23,342 bases of DNA from a virus (IMGVR_UViG_3300032087_006032:1-23342), one strand, 5' to 3'. Counted from the first letter of the stretch, positions 6,675 through 16,854 are shown. Numbers and translations are program-made. Notes: a model not told the origin generated them from the letters alone.

Positions 6675-7043
6675 TTAGAAAGCTACAGCTTCTTCCATAT
6701 CCTTCTTGCGAGAAGGTCTAGTAAGCTTAGCAAAGTTACTTACTCTGAGCTTCATGCTAGAGTGTTTAACACCATCTTTTTCCCAGGTGTCGTTTCGTAA
6801 AGATCCTTCTAGCATCACTAAGTCGCCCTTAGCAAAGGATTCAGCAATGGTTCTTGCTCCAGTATCCCATGCTTCACAAGGCACAAATGTAGTAATCTTG
6901 TCCTTGTTTCCATCGGACTTGGTATACTCTCTAGAAACAGCAATAGTAAAATTAACTACTGATGTATCCTTACCATTAGAAGTATTGATTGTTCTAAGGT
7001 TAGGATCTCTGGCCAGATTACCCTTCAACACAACTAGATTCAT
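6675..7043 (-). CDS. ssb: Single-stranded DNA-binding protein
   Basis: A 122-residue protein that coats ssDNA at the fork and in recombination intermediates. It has the bacterial SSB OB-fold from residue 1 to about 108: MNLVVLKGNLARDPNLR, then VVNFTIAVSREY, then TFVPCEAWDTGARTIAESFAKGDLVMLEG and a final strand MKLRVSNF. The C-terminal tail is very short and only weakly acidic, ending MEEAVAF. This keeps the terminal Phe of the partner-binding tip but not the usual D-D-D-I-P-F. It is well expressed by design: its own promoter lies just upstream and AAGGAG stands 6 nt before the ATG. It separates the polymerase genes from the glycosyltransferase cassette. Confidence 0.95.
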   Translation of the reverse strand: MNLVVLKGNLARDPNLRTINTSNGKDTSVVNFTIAVSREYTKSDGNKDKITTFVPCEAWDTGARTIAESFAKGDLVMLEGSLRNDTWEKDGVKHSSMKLRVSNFAKLTRPSRKKDMEEAVAF

Positions 7044-7119: not shown

Positions 7120-8703
7120 CTATGCTTGCCAAACCTTCTTGATGATCATACTATCATCCTTCTTCTTCGATGGCTCTAATTTTATTACTGTAGTATTGTC
7201 TACAGATAATAAATGTCTGTATATTTTGTATTCTTCAGGAAAGATTACTGTGTCTATTGATCCAGTATTATCTGCTATTTTAACAAATGCCATTTCCTGT
7301 CCAGGATTTGCACCTCTTTTAGTTTTAATCACACTAACATCCTTAATTTCAATACCTACCATTATATTTCTTGGGAAAGTCCTAGCATTACATAAAGCCC
7401 TACAATCTGTATTGACGTAATGTAAGTCGCACTCATCTATTTTGGAGCAGGATACGCTAATACCTAATAATTGATTCTCTGTGTCTGCTATCCATGCGAT
7501 AGAGTCTTCTAATGAATATGCTGGATTTTTGAGCGACTCCAGTAAAGATTCTATAGACTTTTTTCTTCTAACATTAACCTTTGTTAATACGAACGAAATA
7601 CACTGTAAGATATTTTTAAATTCACCGATATTATTTACAATGTGTTCTTTCTCTTTGGCTGTTAGATTATCTATGATGTCATAATCAAATAGCATCTGTT
7701 TTCTGCTTAATCCAAGATAATCAAAACAACCAACAGATATCATGCCTTTAGCACCAGTCTTATTGATCTTATCCAAGACCTTGAACATAATCTCTAGATA
7801 GTTTGCATTTTGCCTATCTATTTCCAGTGTTTGCATCTTGTCATAAACAGAATCCCCGACTCCTTTAATATCTGTTAATCCAAAGTAAATCTTATCGTTT
7901 TGTAGTATGCAGTCTTTGTTATTGATTCTAAAGTCAGGATTGCACACATCAATATCCATCTGCCTACAATTACTTACGAGATCACATATTTCTTGAAAAG
8001 GATCAATCTTTTCTCTGGCTAATTGTAGATAAGAAACGAAAAATTGTTTAGGAAAATGGGTTTTGACATAAGCCGATAGATATGCATTCATAGCATAGGA
8101 AATAGCGTGGCTTTTATTAAAAGAATATCTCTGGCTTTTTTCAATCCAGTTGAAGATTTCTGTGGACTGCTCAACATTCACCACATTGATCTTCTTGCAG
8201 CCTGCCAGGAACTTCTTTTTAATTTTGGCCATCTCTTCTGGTTTCTTTTTACCAATGGCCTTACGAAGCATGTCAGCGTCTTGTAGGTCAAATCCGGCGA
8301 TGCCTTGGGCAATTTGCATAGCCTGTTCTTGATAGATCATCTCACCATATGTAGTGGAAAGAATATCTTTTAGACTCTCATGATAATAATCAATTGATTC
8401 TAATCCATTTTTCTTATCTATATAATGATTACTAACAGACTTGCCATCACGATATGCCTCTAAGCAACCGGGACGTAAAATAGAGATCAAAGCCGATAAT
8501 TGCTCTATATTTTCTGGCTTGAGTTTTTTAGCCATTGTTTGGCCTAGTCGAGACTCTAACTGGAAACACCCCTTAGTATTGCCAGAGCCAATTAATTTCC
8601 AAGTTTGTTTACAATCGAGATTGAGATTGATCAAATTAAGATCAAGATCTATTTTGTCTTCGGTAAAGCCAAATGAGCAACCGCACTTATATTTTTTACG
8701 CAT
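7120..8703 (-). CDS. dnaE: DNA polymerase III alpha subunit, C-terminal half (fingers, HhH, OB)
   Basis: A 527-residue protein corresponding to the second half of bacterial DnaE. After a short N-terminal extension with KYKCGCSFGF it has the fingers-domain motifs: GCFQLESRLGQ (about 45-55), YQEQAMQIAQGIAGFDLQDAD, LRKAIGKKKPEEM, and RYSFNKSHAISYAMNAYLSAYVK (about 192-214). An HhH-like part (GLTDIKGVGDSVYDKM) follows, and an OB-fold near the end (MVGIEIKDVSVIKTKRG...GSIDTVIFPEEY). It has no PHP domain or palm aspartates, so it is inactive without the other half, encoded at 9591-11453. A longer start at 8739 is possible, but the ATG at 8703 gives the recurrent 8-nt ATG-x3-TAA overlap with the exonuclease gene. 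Combined length of both halves (1147 residues) equals a normal single-chain DnaE. Confidence 0.9.
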   Translation of the reverse strand: MRKKYKCGCSFGFTEDKIDLDLNLINLNLDCKQTWKLIGSGNTKGCFQLESRLGQTMAKKLKPENIEQLSALISILRPGCLEAYRDGKSVSNHYIDKKNGLESIDYYHESLKDILSTTYGEMIYQEQAMQIAQGIAGFDLQDADMLRKAIGKKKPEEMAKIKKKFLAGCKKINVVNVEQSTEIFNWIEKSQRYSFNKSHAISYAMNAYLSAYVKTHFPKQFFVSYLQLAREKIDPFQEICDLVSNCRQMDIDVCNPDFRINNKDCILQNDKIYFGLTDIKGVGDSVYDKMQTLEIDRQNANYLEIMFKVLDKINKTGAKGMISVGCFDYLGLSRKQMLFDYDIIDNLTAKEKEHIVNNIGEFKNILQCISFVLTKVNVRRKKSIESLLESLKNPAYSLEDSIAWIADTENQLLGISVSCSKIDECDLHYVNTDCRALCNARTFPRNIMVGIEIKDVSVIKTKRGANPGQEMAFVKIADNTGSIDTVIFPEEYKIYRHLLSVDNTTVIKLEPSKKKDDSMIIKKVWQA

Positions 8704-9415
8704 GAGCAAAAGAGTTTTTGAACTGTATCCTGTTAGCAAAATTCTTGTGTAACTTGAGAAACCTTATCAATATGTTAGCACAGTCAGTGACATCCTTCAA
8801 GGCGTCGTGTGCATTATCAAAGTCTATTCCCATATACGATCTAATCGAATCTAACGATATGGACTTAATTTCTGGTATGTACATAAACCATAAGTTTACA
8901 ACGTACATTAGATCTATTCTATCTCTAGGATGAAATATAGATGTGGACTTTTCTTTAGCGTCAAACTGATCGTATTTTTCGCTAAGTCTATCTACAATCT
9001 TCATATCAAATCTATTGATATTATAGCCACATGCAATAGGTGCTGTGAACTTACTTTTGGTTTTCTTGCCAGATCCACCTAAATGGTAATTATCTAGATA
9101 GCTAATAAATTGTTGCCAAGAATGTTTTTGTTCTGGATATTTCAACCAATCTTCCAGAATTGTACTTTTATCGACACCTCTCACTTTACCGTGCCAATCT
9201 AAAATATCGGAATCGGTATATGGATGATTATCAATAGTTACGCCTTCGGCTTTTTCTAGCCGTTCTGGTTTAAGATTGATATTAAATTCCGAGTTTTCTA
9301 CAATCTTTAATTTAACCGGGTCCACTATGACTGCTGCGAGTTGCACGGGGCTGCAATTGTGTGGATCAGCCCCGTCCGTCTCAAAGTCAAAGACACAAAT
9401 CTTATTCTTGTTCAT
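8696..9415 (-). CDS. dnaQ: DnaQ-like 3'-5' proofreading exonuclease
   Basis: A 239-residue DEDDh exonuclease, equivalent to the epsilon subunit that removes misincorporated bases for Pol III alpha. Exo I is FDFETDG with D10 and E12. Exo II is GYNINRFD with D137. Exo III is NAHDALKD with H203 and D208, the DEDDh type. An insertion at about 75-125 (HGKVRG..., GGSGKKTKSK) enlarges it beyond the usual catalytic domain of about 180 residues. The ATG at 9415 overlaps the stop of a 57-aa gene (ATGA). Its stop overlaps the start of the polymerase C-half by 8 nt. It therefore lies physically between the two halves of the polymerase it presumably serves. Confidence 0.88.
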   Translation of the reverse strand: MNKNKICVFDFETDGADPHNCSPVQLAAVIVDPVKLKIVENSEFNINLKPERLEKAEGVTIDNHPYTDSDILDWHGKVRGVDKSTILEDWLKYPEQKHSWQQFISYLDNYHLGGSGKKTKSKFTAPIACGYNINRFDMKIVDRLSEKYDQFDAKEKSTSIFHPRDRIDLMYVVNLWFMYIPEIKSISLDSIRSYMGIDFDNAHDALKDVTDCANILIRFLKLHKNFANRIQFKNSFAHA

Positions 9416-9585
9416 GCAACCTTTTGTACTTCCTGTTGTGGTTTGAAAACTGCATTTGCTCCATTAGCTACCTGTTTAGCATTACATTTAAGCTGGCAAC
9501 AAGTAAGCTTTTCTGGTTTGACTTTTTTATACTTGACATTATTAACTGTGAAAATATCACCAAGTTTTAAATCTTGAAATTTCAT
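9412..9585 (-). CDS. 57-residue protein with a CC...C motif, unknown function
   Basis: A short gene with no recognised family. It starts at ATG 9585, with AAAGGAG at 9600..9594 that lies inside the last codons of the polymerase N-half, and ends in an ATGA overlap with the exonuclease start. The protein begins MKFQDLKLGDIFTVNNVKYKK, a two-strand beta pattern (L-K-x-G-D-x-F-x-V-x-x-x-x-Y-x-K) common in small phage proteins. It continues with LTCCQLKCNAKQVA and NAVFKPQQEVQKVA. The three cysteines (29, 30 and 34) may bind metal but are too few to be sure. The strong ribosome site, exact couplings on both sides and the ordered motif pattern make it a real gene. Its role between polymerase and proofreader is unknown. 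Confidence 0.72.
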   Translation of the reverse strand: MKFQDLKLGDIFTVNNVKYKKVKPEKLTCCQLKCNAKQVANGANAVFKPQQEVQKVA

Positions 9586-9590
9586 AGTAT

Positions 9591-11453
9591 TTACTCCTTT
9601 TTTAGTAACGATTGGACATTCATCATTTTATCCAGCAGGGCAATACCTAGGATATCGAATTTTACTACACCTATAGATTCTAAATCATTCATTTCTAAAC
9701 CGGCTATGTTTTGTTTGGTTTTAGTATCATAAATCATAGGGCAGATACCAGCTAGGCTTTCCTGGGATATTGCGATACCTGCTGCATGTTTAGATTGGTT
9801 GTACTTGGTGCCTTCTAATCTAATAGCTTGCTCAAAGCGTTTGGCAAGTGGTCCCTTGAGTTCGCCGTCTTGCTTATGACACCAATCTTGCAATTGTTTG
9901 CTATTGTTTTCTAATGCCCAGTTGATAATCGAGGCTTCTCCGCTTTCGTCTTTCATTTCTTGCAGTTCATCTGCAATTTTTGCCTCATCTGGTATATGTT
10001 TGGTAATACGGTTCATTTCTTCAAAAGATATATTGCCATATACTCTTAGTACCTCTTTCAATGCTCCTCTGCCTTTAAGCGTATTATAGGTAATCATTTG
10101 AGAAACTTTATCTTGACCATATGTATTTTTGATATACTGAATAATTTCTTCTCGTTTATTAATCGGCACATCAACGTCAATATCTGGCATGGATATTCTA
10201 TCTTTACTGTTACGCCCAGCGTTGTAAAATCTTTCAAAAATCAGATTGTATTTGATGGGATCAATAGCTGTAATACCCACCAAATATGACACTAGGCATC
10301 CAGCGGCACTGCCTCTACCGGGTCCAGGTAGCCAATGATTTTTCTGCACATGATTGACTATATCTTGCACAATCAAAAAATAACTACTAAGATTGGCACC
10401 TTCCAGCACATCTAGTTCATATTTAATGCGATCAACATATTTGTTATGCAATTCTTTCGGCACAACATTTTGAATTCTGTCTCGCCAGCCATGACGGCAA
10501 AGCTCTCTTAAGTATTGCTCAGAGTTCATTCCGTCAGGACAATTAAAATCTGGAAGATGAGGCTTGTTAAGAATATCATAATCTTCACACATAGAATCCA
10601 CCAAGTTGGTATTATCTATTTCATCCCCAAGATTAATCTCGTTGATATCTTCATGAGATAGTATATGATAGCTATCAGAGTGGAAAAATGAATCCATTCC
10701 GAATGATTCACCCCTAGATATTTTTTCTGCAACTTTTGGCAGAGACAGCTTCATATTACTGCATAGCAAGATTCTTTGATCTACGCAATCATCAGCTTCA
10801 CAGTAATGAGCATCTATGCTGGCTATTTTAGGAATTTTATTGAGAGTGCATATATCTCTCAGTTTTTGTCCTATGGTTTGCTGGTATTGATTTTCTCGAT
10901 CCATTAGTTGTACTTCAACGAAAAAATTGTCTTTTCCAAAGATATCTGACAGACCACCTATTTCCTTGAGTATTTCGTTATCGCTAACAAAACTTTCTTC
11001 AGGATATATTTTGTTTGCTAAATATGAACCAGGATGTCCACACAAACACACAATATCATTCTTGGATACCATCGATCCTAACTTGGCCATATCCAAACGA
11101 GGTTTGTGGTAAAAGTTTTCTGCTTTGTTAGACTCTGAAACAATTTGCACAAGATTTTTCCAACCGTTCAGATTTTTCGACAATAAAACTATATGTGATA
11201 ATTTTCTATTGTCTTTATTGTGAATATGACTGTCTTGTTCAGAAATATATAGCTCAACACCAAGAATAGGTTTGATATTTTGCTTACGCATAGTCTGATA
11301 AAATTTGATACAGCCAGAAATTGTGCCGTGATCAGTGATAGCACAACTTTTCATTTCTAGCTTAGAGCATCGTTGGGCGATGTCTTCTGGCTTGCTAAGT
11401 CCGTCCAATAAACTGTAATGCGAATGCAAATGCAAAGGGGTATAGGGTTTCAT
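9591..11453 (-). CDS. dnaE: DNA polymerase III alpha subunit, N-terminal half (PHP and palm)
   Basis: A 620-residue protein with the first half of bacterial DnaE. The PHP domain opens it: PLHLHSHYSLLDG (H8, H10, H12), ITDHGTISG (D41, H42), GVELYI (E67), CGHPGS (H140), and DAHY near 214. Many metal ligands look intact, so PHP may bind metal. The palm has LPGPGRGSAAGCLVSYLVG (about 375-392), MPDIDVDVP with catalytic D426 and D428, and VVKFDILGI with the third aspartate D600. The chain stops 20 residues after D600, exactly where the palm leads into the fingers; the fingers are encoded separately at 7120-8703. No intein motif is seen at the end. It starts at an ATGA overlap with the Cas4-like nuclease. 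Confidence 0.92.
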   Translation of the reverse strand: MKPYTPLHLHSHYSLLDGLSKPEDIAQRCSKLEMKSCAITDHGTISGCIKFYQTMRKQNIKPILGVELYISEQDSHIHNKDNRKLSHIVLLSKNLNGWKNLVQIVSESNKAENFYHKPRLDMAKLGSMVSKNDIVCLCGHPGSYLANKIYPEESFVSDNEILKEIGGLSDIFGKDNFFVEVQLMDRENQYQQTIGQKLRDICTLNKIPKIASIDAHYCEADDCVDQRILLCSNMKLSLPKVAEKISRGESFGMDSFFHSDSYHILSHEDINEINLGDEIDNTNLVDSMCEDYDILNKPHLPDFNCPDGMNSEQYLRELCRHGWRDRIQNVVPKELHNKYVDRIKYELDVLEGANLSSYFLIVQDIVNHVQKNHWLPGPGRGSAAGCLVSYLVGITAIDPIKYNLIFERFYNAGRNSKDRISMPDIDVDVPINKREEIIQYIKNTYGQDKVSQMITYNTLKGRGALKEVLRVYGNISFEEMNRITKHIPDEAKIADELQEMKDESGEASIINWALENNSKQLQDWCHKQDGELKGPLAKRFEQAIRLEGTKYNQSKHAAGIAISQESLAGICPMIYDTKTKQNIAGLEMNDLESIGVVKFDILGIALLDKMMNVQSLLKKE

Positions 11454-12481
11454 TCTGTACTTCCAGGGGCTTTGTAATATCCTACATTGTAACCGGGCAC
11501 AGTGTATTCGTCAACCACATTTTTTATTCCTTTCAACTCAATATCATGTTTGACTTGTTCGCACATCGTCATAAAGTCGCCTTGGTGACATAATTGACCC
11601 TGACGATATTCTATCAACGGTGTTACGTTAGTATTATCAAAGGAATTTTTCCCATAATGACAAAGCTTAGTGCATTTCCAGCTTTTGCTCAATTTGGGCT
11701 TTTTGCATTTTTTAATTTCGTCAAATTTTGTCCTCAATAAATCTTCAGTCTTAAATATGTCAGATCTATCAAATGTCATACTAAATGGACCGCCATCATT
11801 GATAAAATATATAGTCACAATGCAGTGTTTCAATTCTGGATATAGTTTTTGAGCAGCATAGAAGTAGATCATAAGTTGTGGATCTTTTTCTAGCTTTTCC
11901 TGTGTTTTTTCCTCACCAGTTGCCCAATTCAATCTTCTTCCGGTTTTCCAGTCGATAATTTCTAAGGTGTCATCATTCACCTTGGTAATTAAGTCAATGG
12001 TTCCTTTAATTGCTAGTGTGCCTTGTAAATCCCCGTAGTTATATTTTGCCCACGGTTTATCTATAACAATATCAAACTGTTGTTCTGGATACAATATATC
12101 ACGATTACGTGGATCAAACATACCGTCTGCATATTCAATAGCCTTATAGGACCATGCCCTACAGTCTTTGCGGTCTTTGTCGCTCCAAGTATGATGCTTG
12201 AACTGAGAAGTATAAAAGTCGTAAACGTCATTAATGATATTATCCAGATTATAATTATGGATATCTACATTGCCTATGATGTCATCCTCAAAGGAGTGCT
12301 CTCCTTTTTGTTCGGTAAATTTGATAAATGCTAATATCTCTAATACTTTATGTACTATGGTGCCTTTGTCTGCTTTTTTATTTGAAGGCGATCTATATCC
12401 TAATACATAATCAAAGAAGTATTGTTGCTCACACATATTGTGCGTATTATATGATGAGCTACGGAAATATGTTATTATAAT
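11450..12481 (-). CDS. Cas4/RecB-like PD-(D/E)XK nuclease, probable ATT start
   Basis: About 343 residues. It is a probable ssDNA exonuclease of the Cas4/AddB class with an iron-sulfur cluster. Motifs: SSSYNTHNMCEQQYF at the N-terminus (C17, first cluster cysteine), GTIVHKVLE (H44), GTIDLIT (D163), EIIDWKTGR (D177, K179), DPQLMIYFYAA (the Q-x3-Y helix), then KCKKPKLSKSWKCTKLC with the later cysteines. The first ATG is at 12436, but it has no ribosome site and would cut off the S-S-S-Y segment that opens this family. The frame stays open upstream to an ATT at 12481 that stands 7 nt from AAAGGAG, so ATT is taken as the start (ATA at 12478 is less likely). It overlaps the dNMP kinase end by 7 nt. 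Likely role: end processing in recombination. Confidence 0.82.
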   Translation of the reverse strand: MIITYFRSSSYNTHNMCEQQYFFDYVLGYRSPSNKKADKGTIVHKVLEILAFIKFTEQKGEHSFEDDIIGNVDIHNYNLDNIINDVYDFYTSQFKHHTWSDKDRKDCRAWSYKAIEYADGMFDPRNRDILYPEQQFDIVIDKPWAKYNYGDLQGTLAIKGTIDLITKVNDDTLEIIDWKTGRRLNWATGEEKTQEKLEKDPQLMIYFYAAQKLYPELKHCIVTIYFINDGGPFSMTFDRSDIFKTEDLLRTKFDEIKKCKKPKLSKSWKCTKLCHYGKNSFDNTNVTPLIEYRQGQLCHQGDFMTMCEQVKHDIELKGIKNVVDEYTVPGYNVGYYKAPGSTE

Positions 12482-15976: not shown

Positions 15977-16457
15977 TATTAGTAACCTTTATTCTAGAGA
16001 CCGACATTAGTATATCTGATAAATTCTTTATGCTGTTAGATAGATATGATAATCTATCCATTCTTTGTTTTGCGTACTTCCTAATCTTACTTAATTTACT
16101 AGCTCTTTCATTATGTTTAATGGCTTGATATGCTTTTTCTACATACCCATACCCTTTGTAGTTATTGATTTCATCACCAATCACCTCTTTGATCGTTTCA
16201 TCTGCCCAATTATACCTTGCTGTTTCACGATTGCAAGTCCTTTGAATATGAAAGCTGAATTGAGCTAACCTGAATGATATCTCAGCACATTGTTGAGGTG
16301 TATGTTTCTCAATCACATCTCTATTCATTGTTAAGTATGATTGCAGTTCACTTTCTGGTAATACATCTTCTGTATACGAGCATAAACCCAGAGTTTTCTC
16401 GTAGTCATCAAGAATATTATCCCAGTTTTCTAATTCTTCTTTAACCGTTTTGTTCAT
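15969..16457 (-). CDS. Helical protein, candidate UvsY-like recombination mediator
   Basis: A 162-residue, almost wholly helical protein with no cysteine motif or membrane segment. Residues about 58-95 (ISFRLAQFSFHIQRTCNRETARYNWADETIKEVI) are followed by NNYKGYGYVEKAYQAIKHNERASKLSKIRKYAKQ and a final helix LSNSIKNLSDILMSV. This order, an early helix pair, a Tyr-Gly turn, a basic stretch and a last hydrophobic helix, is like T4 UvsY, which loads the recombinase UvsX on SSB-coated ssDNA. It lies two genes from the RecA-type recombinase. Similarity is only in layout, so the call is tentative. GGAGA stands 6 nt before the ATG, and it overlaps the previous gene by 17 nt. Confidence 0.5.
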   Translation of the reverse strand: MNKTVKEELENWDNILDDYEKTLGLCSYTEDVLPESELQSYLTMNRDVIEKHTPQQCAEISFRLAQFSFHIQRTCNRETARYNWADETIKEVIGDEINNYKGYGYVEKAYQAIKHNERASKLSKIRKYAKQRMDRLSYLSNSIKNLSDILMSVSRIKVTNNG

Positions 16458-16854
16458 TGATTATCTCCAACCATTTATCTGTTTCATTATAGGGTAGTTC
16501 AATAACTGCAATATCATTTAATCTGCACCACTCTTTTTTTTCACGATCTCTCTTTTTGTGTTTCATAAAGTTGAGCTTACTGCCATGGAAAAATGGCGTG
16601 TATTTGTAGTGCTGTTCACCATGAACCTCTATACAAATTCTAGCAAGCGGAACGAAAAAGTCAAGGTACAGCGTTTCCGCTTTGCGTAATGGAATACCCA
16701 CTTCTTCCAGAATCTGCATTGTAGGAAATACTTGGTGAATTAATTCTCTAGCTTTCAGATGTAATGCAGACTTGTTTTTTAGTGTGCCTTTAGCAATATG
16801 GCCCTTTAGGGACCATCTTTGCATTTGACCATCTAAATCGACCACATCAATCAT
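16441..16854 (-). CDS. Vsr-fold (EDxHD-like) nuclease next to RecA
   Basis: A 137-residue protein. The first 30 residues (MIDVVDLDGQMQRWSLKGHI) form a small beta hairpin. From about 30 on it shows the Vsr/PD-(D/E)XK core: HLKARELI, then ETLYLDFFVP with an aspartate, then ICIEVHGEQHYKYTPFFHG carrying E, H and a second H, then a basic KKRDREKKEWCRLNDI helix and IAVIELPYNE. The I-E-V-x-G-x-x-H strand is shared with the homing-endonuclease-like protein at 1287-2069, so both use the same fold, but this one lacks HTH and NUMOD parts. It is joined to the recombinase stop by ATGA, suggesting a resident recombination or repair nuclease more than a selfish one. Confidence 0.65.
   Translation of the reverse strand: MIDVVDLDGQMQRWSLKGHIAKGTLKNKSALHLKARELIHQVFPTMQILEEVGIPLRKAETLYLDFFVPLARICIEVHGEQHYKYTPFFHGSKLNFMKHKKRDREKKEWCRLNDIAVIELPYNETDKWLEIINEQNG

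Follow-up and report, generated by a model that had tools for sequence, protein, structure and literature searches.

A phage DNA polymerase III alpha subunit encoded in two halves at the palm/fingers border, with a DnaQ-like exonuclease gene between them

Introduction

Can a replicative DNA polymerase work when its catalytic palm and its fingers are made as separate proteins? This question is raised by a locus in IMGVR_UViG_3300032087_006032:1-23342, a linear viral fragment whose complete IMG/VR record of 23,342 bases was analyzed here and is referred to as the window. Its minus strand carries a phage replication module, in which positions 7120-11453 encode the alpha subunit of DNA polymerase III (PolIII; DnaE) as two open reading frames (ORFs), termed the N-half and the C-half, with a gene for a 57-amino-acid (aa) protein and a gene for a DnaQ-like exonuclease, termed X, between them. 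From sequence-based evidence we propose, at a probability of about 0.82, that this locus would supply the phage with a replicative PolIII alpha of its own, formed by two non-covalently docked subunits, with X as the proofreader.

Results

The N-half and the C-half

The N-half (9591..11453, on the minus strand, as are all features of the module; 620 aa) spans PHP, palm and thumb, and matched the Pfam profiles PHP (4.7e-37) and DNA_pol3_alpha (1.1e-73). Its three catalytic aspartates, comprising the D-x-D pair (codons of D426-V-D428, 10170..10178) and D600 (codon 9654..9656), were invariant among 65 aligned N-halves. The C-half (7120..8703) matched DNA_pol3_finger (2.8e-46), HHH_6 (9.9e-11) and, weakly, an OB domain, and carries the fingers motif GCFQLES at residues 45-51 (8551..8571). 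It has 527 aa when read from the ATG at 8703 and 539 aa when read from a TTG at 8739; the ATG is favored because the alignment of most relatives begins only at residues 6-19 of the TTG form (7120-8739). On alignment to solved structures, the N-half profile ended at residue 635 of Thermus aquaticus (Taq) alpha and the C-half began at residue 641, with residue 584 of Escherichia coli alpha being the first aligned with the C-half; the break therefore falls at the palm/fingers border. An initial annotation, made from the DNA sequence alone, had placed the split at this border and had listed the same lengths, domains, aspartates and fingers motif just inside the C-half, all in agreement with the Pfam matches and alignments (its C-half being the ATG form).

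AlphaFold (AF2) models built from the lineage alignment had a mean predicted local distance difference test score (pLDDT) of 91 for the N-half and 88 for the C-half. In Foldseek comparisons, the N-half model matched the PolIII alpha of Taq, Mycobacterium tuberculosis (Mtb) and E. coli with template modeling (TM) scores by query of 0.72-0.78 (0.77 for Taq alpha). The best match of the C-half model was Mtb DnaE1 (TM 0.54, E 2.5e-22), the low TM values being accompanied by a large root-mean-square deviation. The pair thus combines the features of C-family polymerases, namely PHP, a palm with three aspartates, fingers, HhH and OB, and is predicted to synthesize DNA. The view that the halves together equal one normal DnaE, also put forward in the initial annotation, holds from PHP through OB but not at the C-terminus, where the C-half ends directly past the OB region and the tau-binding domain of bacterial DnaE is absent; this was judged by the layout of E. 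coli alpha, in which we take the tau-binding domain to follow OB. Membership of the C family is possible without that domain.

Conservation in related phages

IMG/VR was scanned with the N-half, the C-half and X as queries, giving 73 loci, the best 80 of 244 loci, and 16 loci, respectively. Both halves were separate ORFs with X between them in every one of the 159 related loci bearing both; several of these loci share contigs, and 106 are distinct by X sequence. The sole entry scored as "fused" (L001) was the window itself, read on the other strand. The N-X-C order, for which the initial annotation had suggested searching phage genomes, was thereby recovered throughout, and an assembly error joining one dnaE gene, which it had considered as an explanation, did not appear. 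In gene direction, the module of the window consists of a deoxynucleoside monophosphate (dNMP) kinase gene, a PDDEXK (RecB-like) nuclease gene (11450..12436, identified by Pfam), the N-half, the 57-aa gene, X, the C-half, the single-stranded DNA-binding protein (SSB) gene (6675..7043, identified by Pfam) and a gene named glycosyltransferase-like by eye. This order was kept in nearly all related IMG/VR loci, as was an N-to-C gap of 740-1010 nucleotides (nt). Between N and X, the deep-branching members L166 (4885-8004) and L062 (9889-10846) have genes that by eye resemble glutamate dehydrogenase, uracil-DNA glycosylase and GMP reductase/IMPDH.

Each of 20 long records of the lineage (69-233 kb) contained one N and one C domain, shown as two pieces where the domain has an interruption of its own (N in G016 and G020, C in G013). 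No full-length or other dnaE was present in these 20 records, so the further possibility named in the initial annotation, an intact gene elsewhere in the genome, did not materialize. Family A (PolA) and family B (PolB) polymerases gave no match in 15 of these records, with positive controls. The ratio of nonsynonymous to synonymous substitution (dN/dS), calculated for pairs with unsaturated dS, lay in the range 0.02-0.10 for the two halves and 0.01-0.09 for X; the N values leave out L002, in which a stop interrupts the N gene. Strong purifying selection acts on both halves. These phages form a widespread, never-cultured group of large phages, and their sequences indicate that the palm/fingers break is old and predates all members of the lineage seen.

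A fused intermediate was sought among genome contigs, where the matches were only about 31-36% identical and listed as bacterial, and in scans started from L062 and L166, two deep-branching members, which returned more split members together with L257 (distant, 29%). Such scans favor close relatives, so a fused intermediate may yet exist. Pseudomonas phage Y1 was considered as the closest cultured relative and rejected, its match falling in a bacterial-type lpxA-lpxB-rnhB-dnaE segment. This segment (OQ572403.1, 1-8311; gene names by eye) lies at the record end and is probably host contamination.

Exonuclease X and the 57-aa gene

X (8696..9415, 239 aa) matched RNase_T of Pfam (8.6e-10) and phrog_192, "DNA polymerase exonuclease subunit" (6.3e-19), and its residues D10, E12, D137, H203 and D208 were invariant in 27 aligned sequences. 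With all five DEDDh residues, X is predicted to be an exonuclease of the DnaQ/epsilon type, and proofreading is presumed. Beyond the exonuclease domain, X has a short tail only; in DnaQ/epsilon, the C-terminal tail binds the PHP domain of alpha. The 57-aa protein (gene at 9412..9585) has a homologue at the same place in many relatives and gave no Pfam or PHROG match.

Start and stop codons overlap by 4 nt between the PDDEXK gene and the N-half, by 4 nt between the 57-aa gene and X, and by 8 nt between X and the C-half (8696..8703), consistent with the earlier description of two ORFs with their own starts overlapping neighbors; the presence of an exonuclease gene and a 57-aa gene between the halves was likewise upheld by the ORFs and by the RNase_T and phrog_192 matches. 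A strong Shine-Dalgarno sequence (GGAG) precedes the 57-aa gene, and none is clear at the C-half start of the window. In nearly all of the 106 distinct loci, the C-half start either overlaps the X stop, with 8 and 4 nt as the commonest overlaps, or is only a few bases away from it. Because the C-half start meets the X stop so regularly, and the start in the window has no clear Shine-Dalgarno sequence, X and the C-half are likely translationally coupled.

A stop and gap in the N-half of relatives

The N-half of the window is continuous, and its codon junction S11/H12 (11420..11421) is the empty allele of a site that is filled in some relatives by a leader, a stop codon and a gap. The sibling L002, whose polymerase genes share 97-98% identity with those of the window, has 830 nt extra between the PDDEXK gene and N, containing an HNH endonuclease gene and the leader MGVERHYVPLHVHS, followed directly by a TGA stop, then GTGTCA, and then HYSLLDG. 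Compared with L002, the window is 97.6% identical up to the N start codon, with replaced sequence beyond. The same element (L002:7271-8060 and 40 other distinct loci) has a leader of the form M(G/D)(V/M)...YVPLHVHS followed by a stop, after which (H/M)YSLLDG resumes with no residue lost. These cases combine a locus survey, which flagged 17 interruptions and was reduced to 16 by a false flag (the N-terminus of L069 is uninterrupted), with a pattern scan of IMG/VR, which yielded 39 stretches (27 distinct, some sharing contigs), each directly before (H/M)(Y/F)SLLDG. The scan pattern fixed the take-off codon and the stop, leaving the landing codon and frame free.

Among the 41 distinct cases, the take-off codon is TCT or TCC, followed by TAA, TAG or TGA; a gap of 6-12 nt separates the take-off codon from the resumed frame; and the codon preceding resumption is TCT, TCA, TCC, ACT, GCT or GCC. 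Resumption occurs in all three frames (10, 14 and 17 cases), and the protein alignment is continuous across the gap. The stretch between a stop and SH(Y/F)S contains no start codon in L110, L128 and L165, so that independent initiation there would lose conserved residues. The leader valine codon was GTC in 16/16 interrupted cases of the survey, in which it was not fixed by a pattern, versus 0/27 uninterrupted LHVHS cases, which fits a leader that moves together with the element. An HNH gene lies directly upstream in 9/41 distinct cases. On the C-half tree, the trait is patchy, since 12 interrupted rows need 9 changes.

The most economical reading of these features is possibly a ribosomal stop-hop linked to a homing endonuclease, a small counterpart of the T4 gene 60 bypass. 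In T4, a homing endonuclease gene lies beside gene 60, which has a short untranslated interruption starting from a stop codon, with coding resumed in another frame, and short counterparts have long been presumed to exist (PMC5009743). The relatives share a short gap after a stop codon and, in the nine cases above, an adjacent endonuclease gene, and hopping in them is predicted from sequence; they differ in gap length (6-12 nt versus 50 nt in gene 60) and in landing codons that often match the take-off codon at only two of three bases.

Inteins and other breaks in relatives

In L069, L082, L091 and L094, the N-half is interrupted at GPGRG^S by a split intein whose two parts flank an endonuclease-like ORF (L082:4077-7153). 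The N-terminal intein part (IntN) of L082 matches NrdJ-1 and DnaE inteins, its match to the Intein_splicing profile being just below the cut-off, and the C-terminal part (IntC) ends in HN^S by eye. By sequence, these four loci fit the fractured-gene layout, in which N-extein-IntN and IntC-C-extein flank an endonuclease gene. A cis-intein is present in the C-half fingers of L062 (11522-13693) at PG^C...HN^C. L131-L134 have a further cut in the N-half, immediately ahead of the catalytic PDID, and a LAGLIDADG ORF separates the resulting pieces (L131:4108-7101); Rfam gave no support for a group I intron at the PDID break of L131.

Several further irregularities were observed in these loci. The PDDEXK ORF of L131 (2123-4111) has an in-frame intein-like insert, GLPLDT...HN^T, which is class-3-like by eye and for which Pfam matched LAGLIDADG only; the PDDEXK gene of L069 has a gap similar to this insert. 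In L150, an ORF judged HNH-like by eye separates N from the 57-aa gene. About 35 residues are missing from the N-half of L149 (3205-4933), D426 and D428 among them, and the frame changes; this N-half is a damaged copy or a misassembly. In the window itself, the ORFs at 1287-2069 and 16441-16854 have by eye the look of Vsr/PDDEXK-type endonucleases and are possible homing genes.

Discussion

In the proposed mechanism, the N-half would supply PHP, the palm and all metal-binding aspartates, and the C-half would supply fingers, HhH and OB for holding template and nucleotide. The separately translated halves would dock at their natural palm/fingers interface without a peptide bond, giving an active polymerase, and X would act as the 3'-5' proofreader, analogous to epsilon, with its production tied to that of the C-half through translational coupling. 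Non-covalent assembly, also proposed in the initial annotation, is the best inference; it is paralleled by gp43A and gp43B of Aeromonas phage 25, two chains that co-purify and are active as a polymerase (PMC2988022); split NrdA of Aeh1 is likewise fully active (PMC2988022). X may possibly nucleate assembly of the halves, an idea of the initial annotation in favor of which the conserved gene order and the X/C start-stop overlap can be cited.

Other explanations would restore a single chain or deny the locus a function. Rejoining of the halves after synthesis by trans-splicing, in the manner of cyanobacterial DnaE, might be suspected from the split inteins present in the lineage at GPGRG^S of the N-half; however, the N-half ends about 20 aa past D600, and the DnaE-matching region of the C-half is preceded by about 25 residues at most, with no HN-Cys/Ser/Thr end. 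Neither intein half would fit there in the aligned relatives, making this route highly improbable. An intein at the N/C junction was accordingly rejected as a candidate after both ends were inspected in aligned relatives, which had neither IntN nor IntC there. The statement in the initial annotation that neither end has an intein signature stands for the junction, although the lineage's polymerase genes do hold inteins at other sites. Inteins insert at conserved motifs; the break is not the remnant of one at such a motif, because it lies in a variable linker. Joining of N and C in RNA, through splicing of a group I or II intron bearing the 57-aa and X genes, would be in keeping with the frequency of introns in phage polymerase genes. 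Yet overlapping genes leave hardly any noncoding sequence in the interval; X has its own start and is an intact enzyme of the DEDDh kind, not a homing enzyme; the C-half has its own ATG in relatives; and an Rfam search of the window gave no match, so we give this idea hardly any weight. Decay and misassembly can occur, as the damaged N-half of L149 without its aspartate block indicates, but it is scarcely credible that the halves are decayed remnants or products of metagenome assembly, given the identical arrangement in 159/159 loci from many metagenomes, the strong purifying selection, and the single-copy state of the halves without an intact dnaE.

The alternative closest to our proposal is that X is an obligatory scaffold bridging N and C, the core then having three chains instead of an alpha with a separately bound proofreader. 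Its position between the halves in every locus, together with a stop that, in nearly all distinct loci, overlaps or closely adjoins the start of the C-half, would fit such a role. Gene order alone is, however, no demonstration of binding, and the deep relatives L062 and L166 have further genes between N and X; moreover, epsilon of E. coli binds PHP, which is found on the N-half only (PMC3919608). An obligatory bridge is therefore considered unlikely, though less so than the explanations above.

Some observations weigh against two docked chains serving as the phage's own replicase. A search of 10 long records gave no DnaN clamp, and inspection of the C-half by eye revealed no canonical clamp motif, so that processivity is not accounted for. 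IMG/VR records may be incomplete, the long records being classed as linear with no completeness estimate, so that another polymerase could have been missed. No cultured relatives of X or of the upstream nuclease were found.

Split phage DnaEs are already known, with breaks at the PHP/palm border and before the catalytic aspartates; the palm/fingers position is apparently unreported, and in the open-access literature we found no report of such a break with a proofreader gene between the parts. Two-gene DnaEs of cultured phages, likewise C-family polymerases in two nearby genes, were mapped on the lineage profile. The break is at the PHP/palm border in the Terapinvirus phages Djokovic (gp64/66) and Suzy (gp64/65), in ChewyVIII (gp72/70), Nilo (gp74/76) and Hiddenleaf (gp58/59); in Bacillus phage Jayan and Cellulophaga phi13:1 it lies immediately ahead of the catalytic PDID. 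These proteins are mostly about 23-31% identical, have no exonuclease gene between them, and are not broken between palm and fingers. In Mycobacterium phage Nilo (MH001447.1), gp74 is annotated as a sliding clamp, yet its match is to the PHP part of DnaE, the remainder being matched by gp76.

A split minimal PolIII alpha, with parts called NTP-binding and Mg-binding, was described for group 2.2 jumbo phages in a 2021 survey (PMC7824862). There too the catalytic core is made as two stand-alone proteins, but it comprises the core only, is encoded by distant genes, and accompanies PolB (PMC7824862), whereas the present lineage has the full domain set in one operon and no PolB match in the 15 long records. 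The T4-related gp43A and gp43B of Aeromonas phages 25 and 44RR also represent a phage replicative polymerase encoded by two separate conserved genes; they belong to family B and are thus non-homologous, and adjoin a seg endonuclease gene or an untranslated insert rather than a proofreader gene. Cyanobacterial DnaE resembles the locus in being encoded by two genes, but its parts are rejoined by a split intein, whereas no intein sequence occurs at the junction here. With bacterial DnaE1 and its separate epsilon (DnaQ), the locus shares the domains, the catalytic motifs and a separate DEDDh proofreader; DnaE1 differs in being a single chain with a tau-binding C-terminal domain, the best bacterial match being about 33-36%.

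The variety of breaks leads us to lean, by a narrow margin, toward a dnaE locus that has been repeatedly broken by mobile elements, the breaks being tolerated as free chains, split intein, cis-intein, LAGLIDADG break and hopped stop-gap (41 loci). Among the relatives, phages that are otherwise nearly identical differ in whether an essential gene bears a homing-endonuclease-linked interruption, and they supply a set of putative short ribosomal hops; if these are true, the hop would be needed for making the PHP domain. The locus itself would represent a natural, stable, two-chain replicase of the bacterial type, cut between catalytic palm and fingers, in phages for which this is the one replicative polymerase detected. 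It makes it possible to test a C-family polymerase as separable subunits, and to ask how the ratio of proofreader to polymerase is kept.

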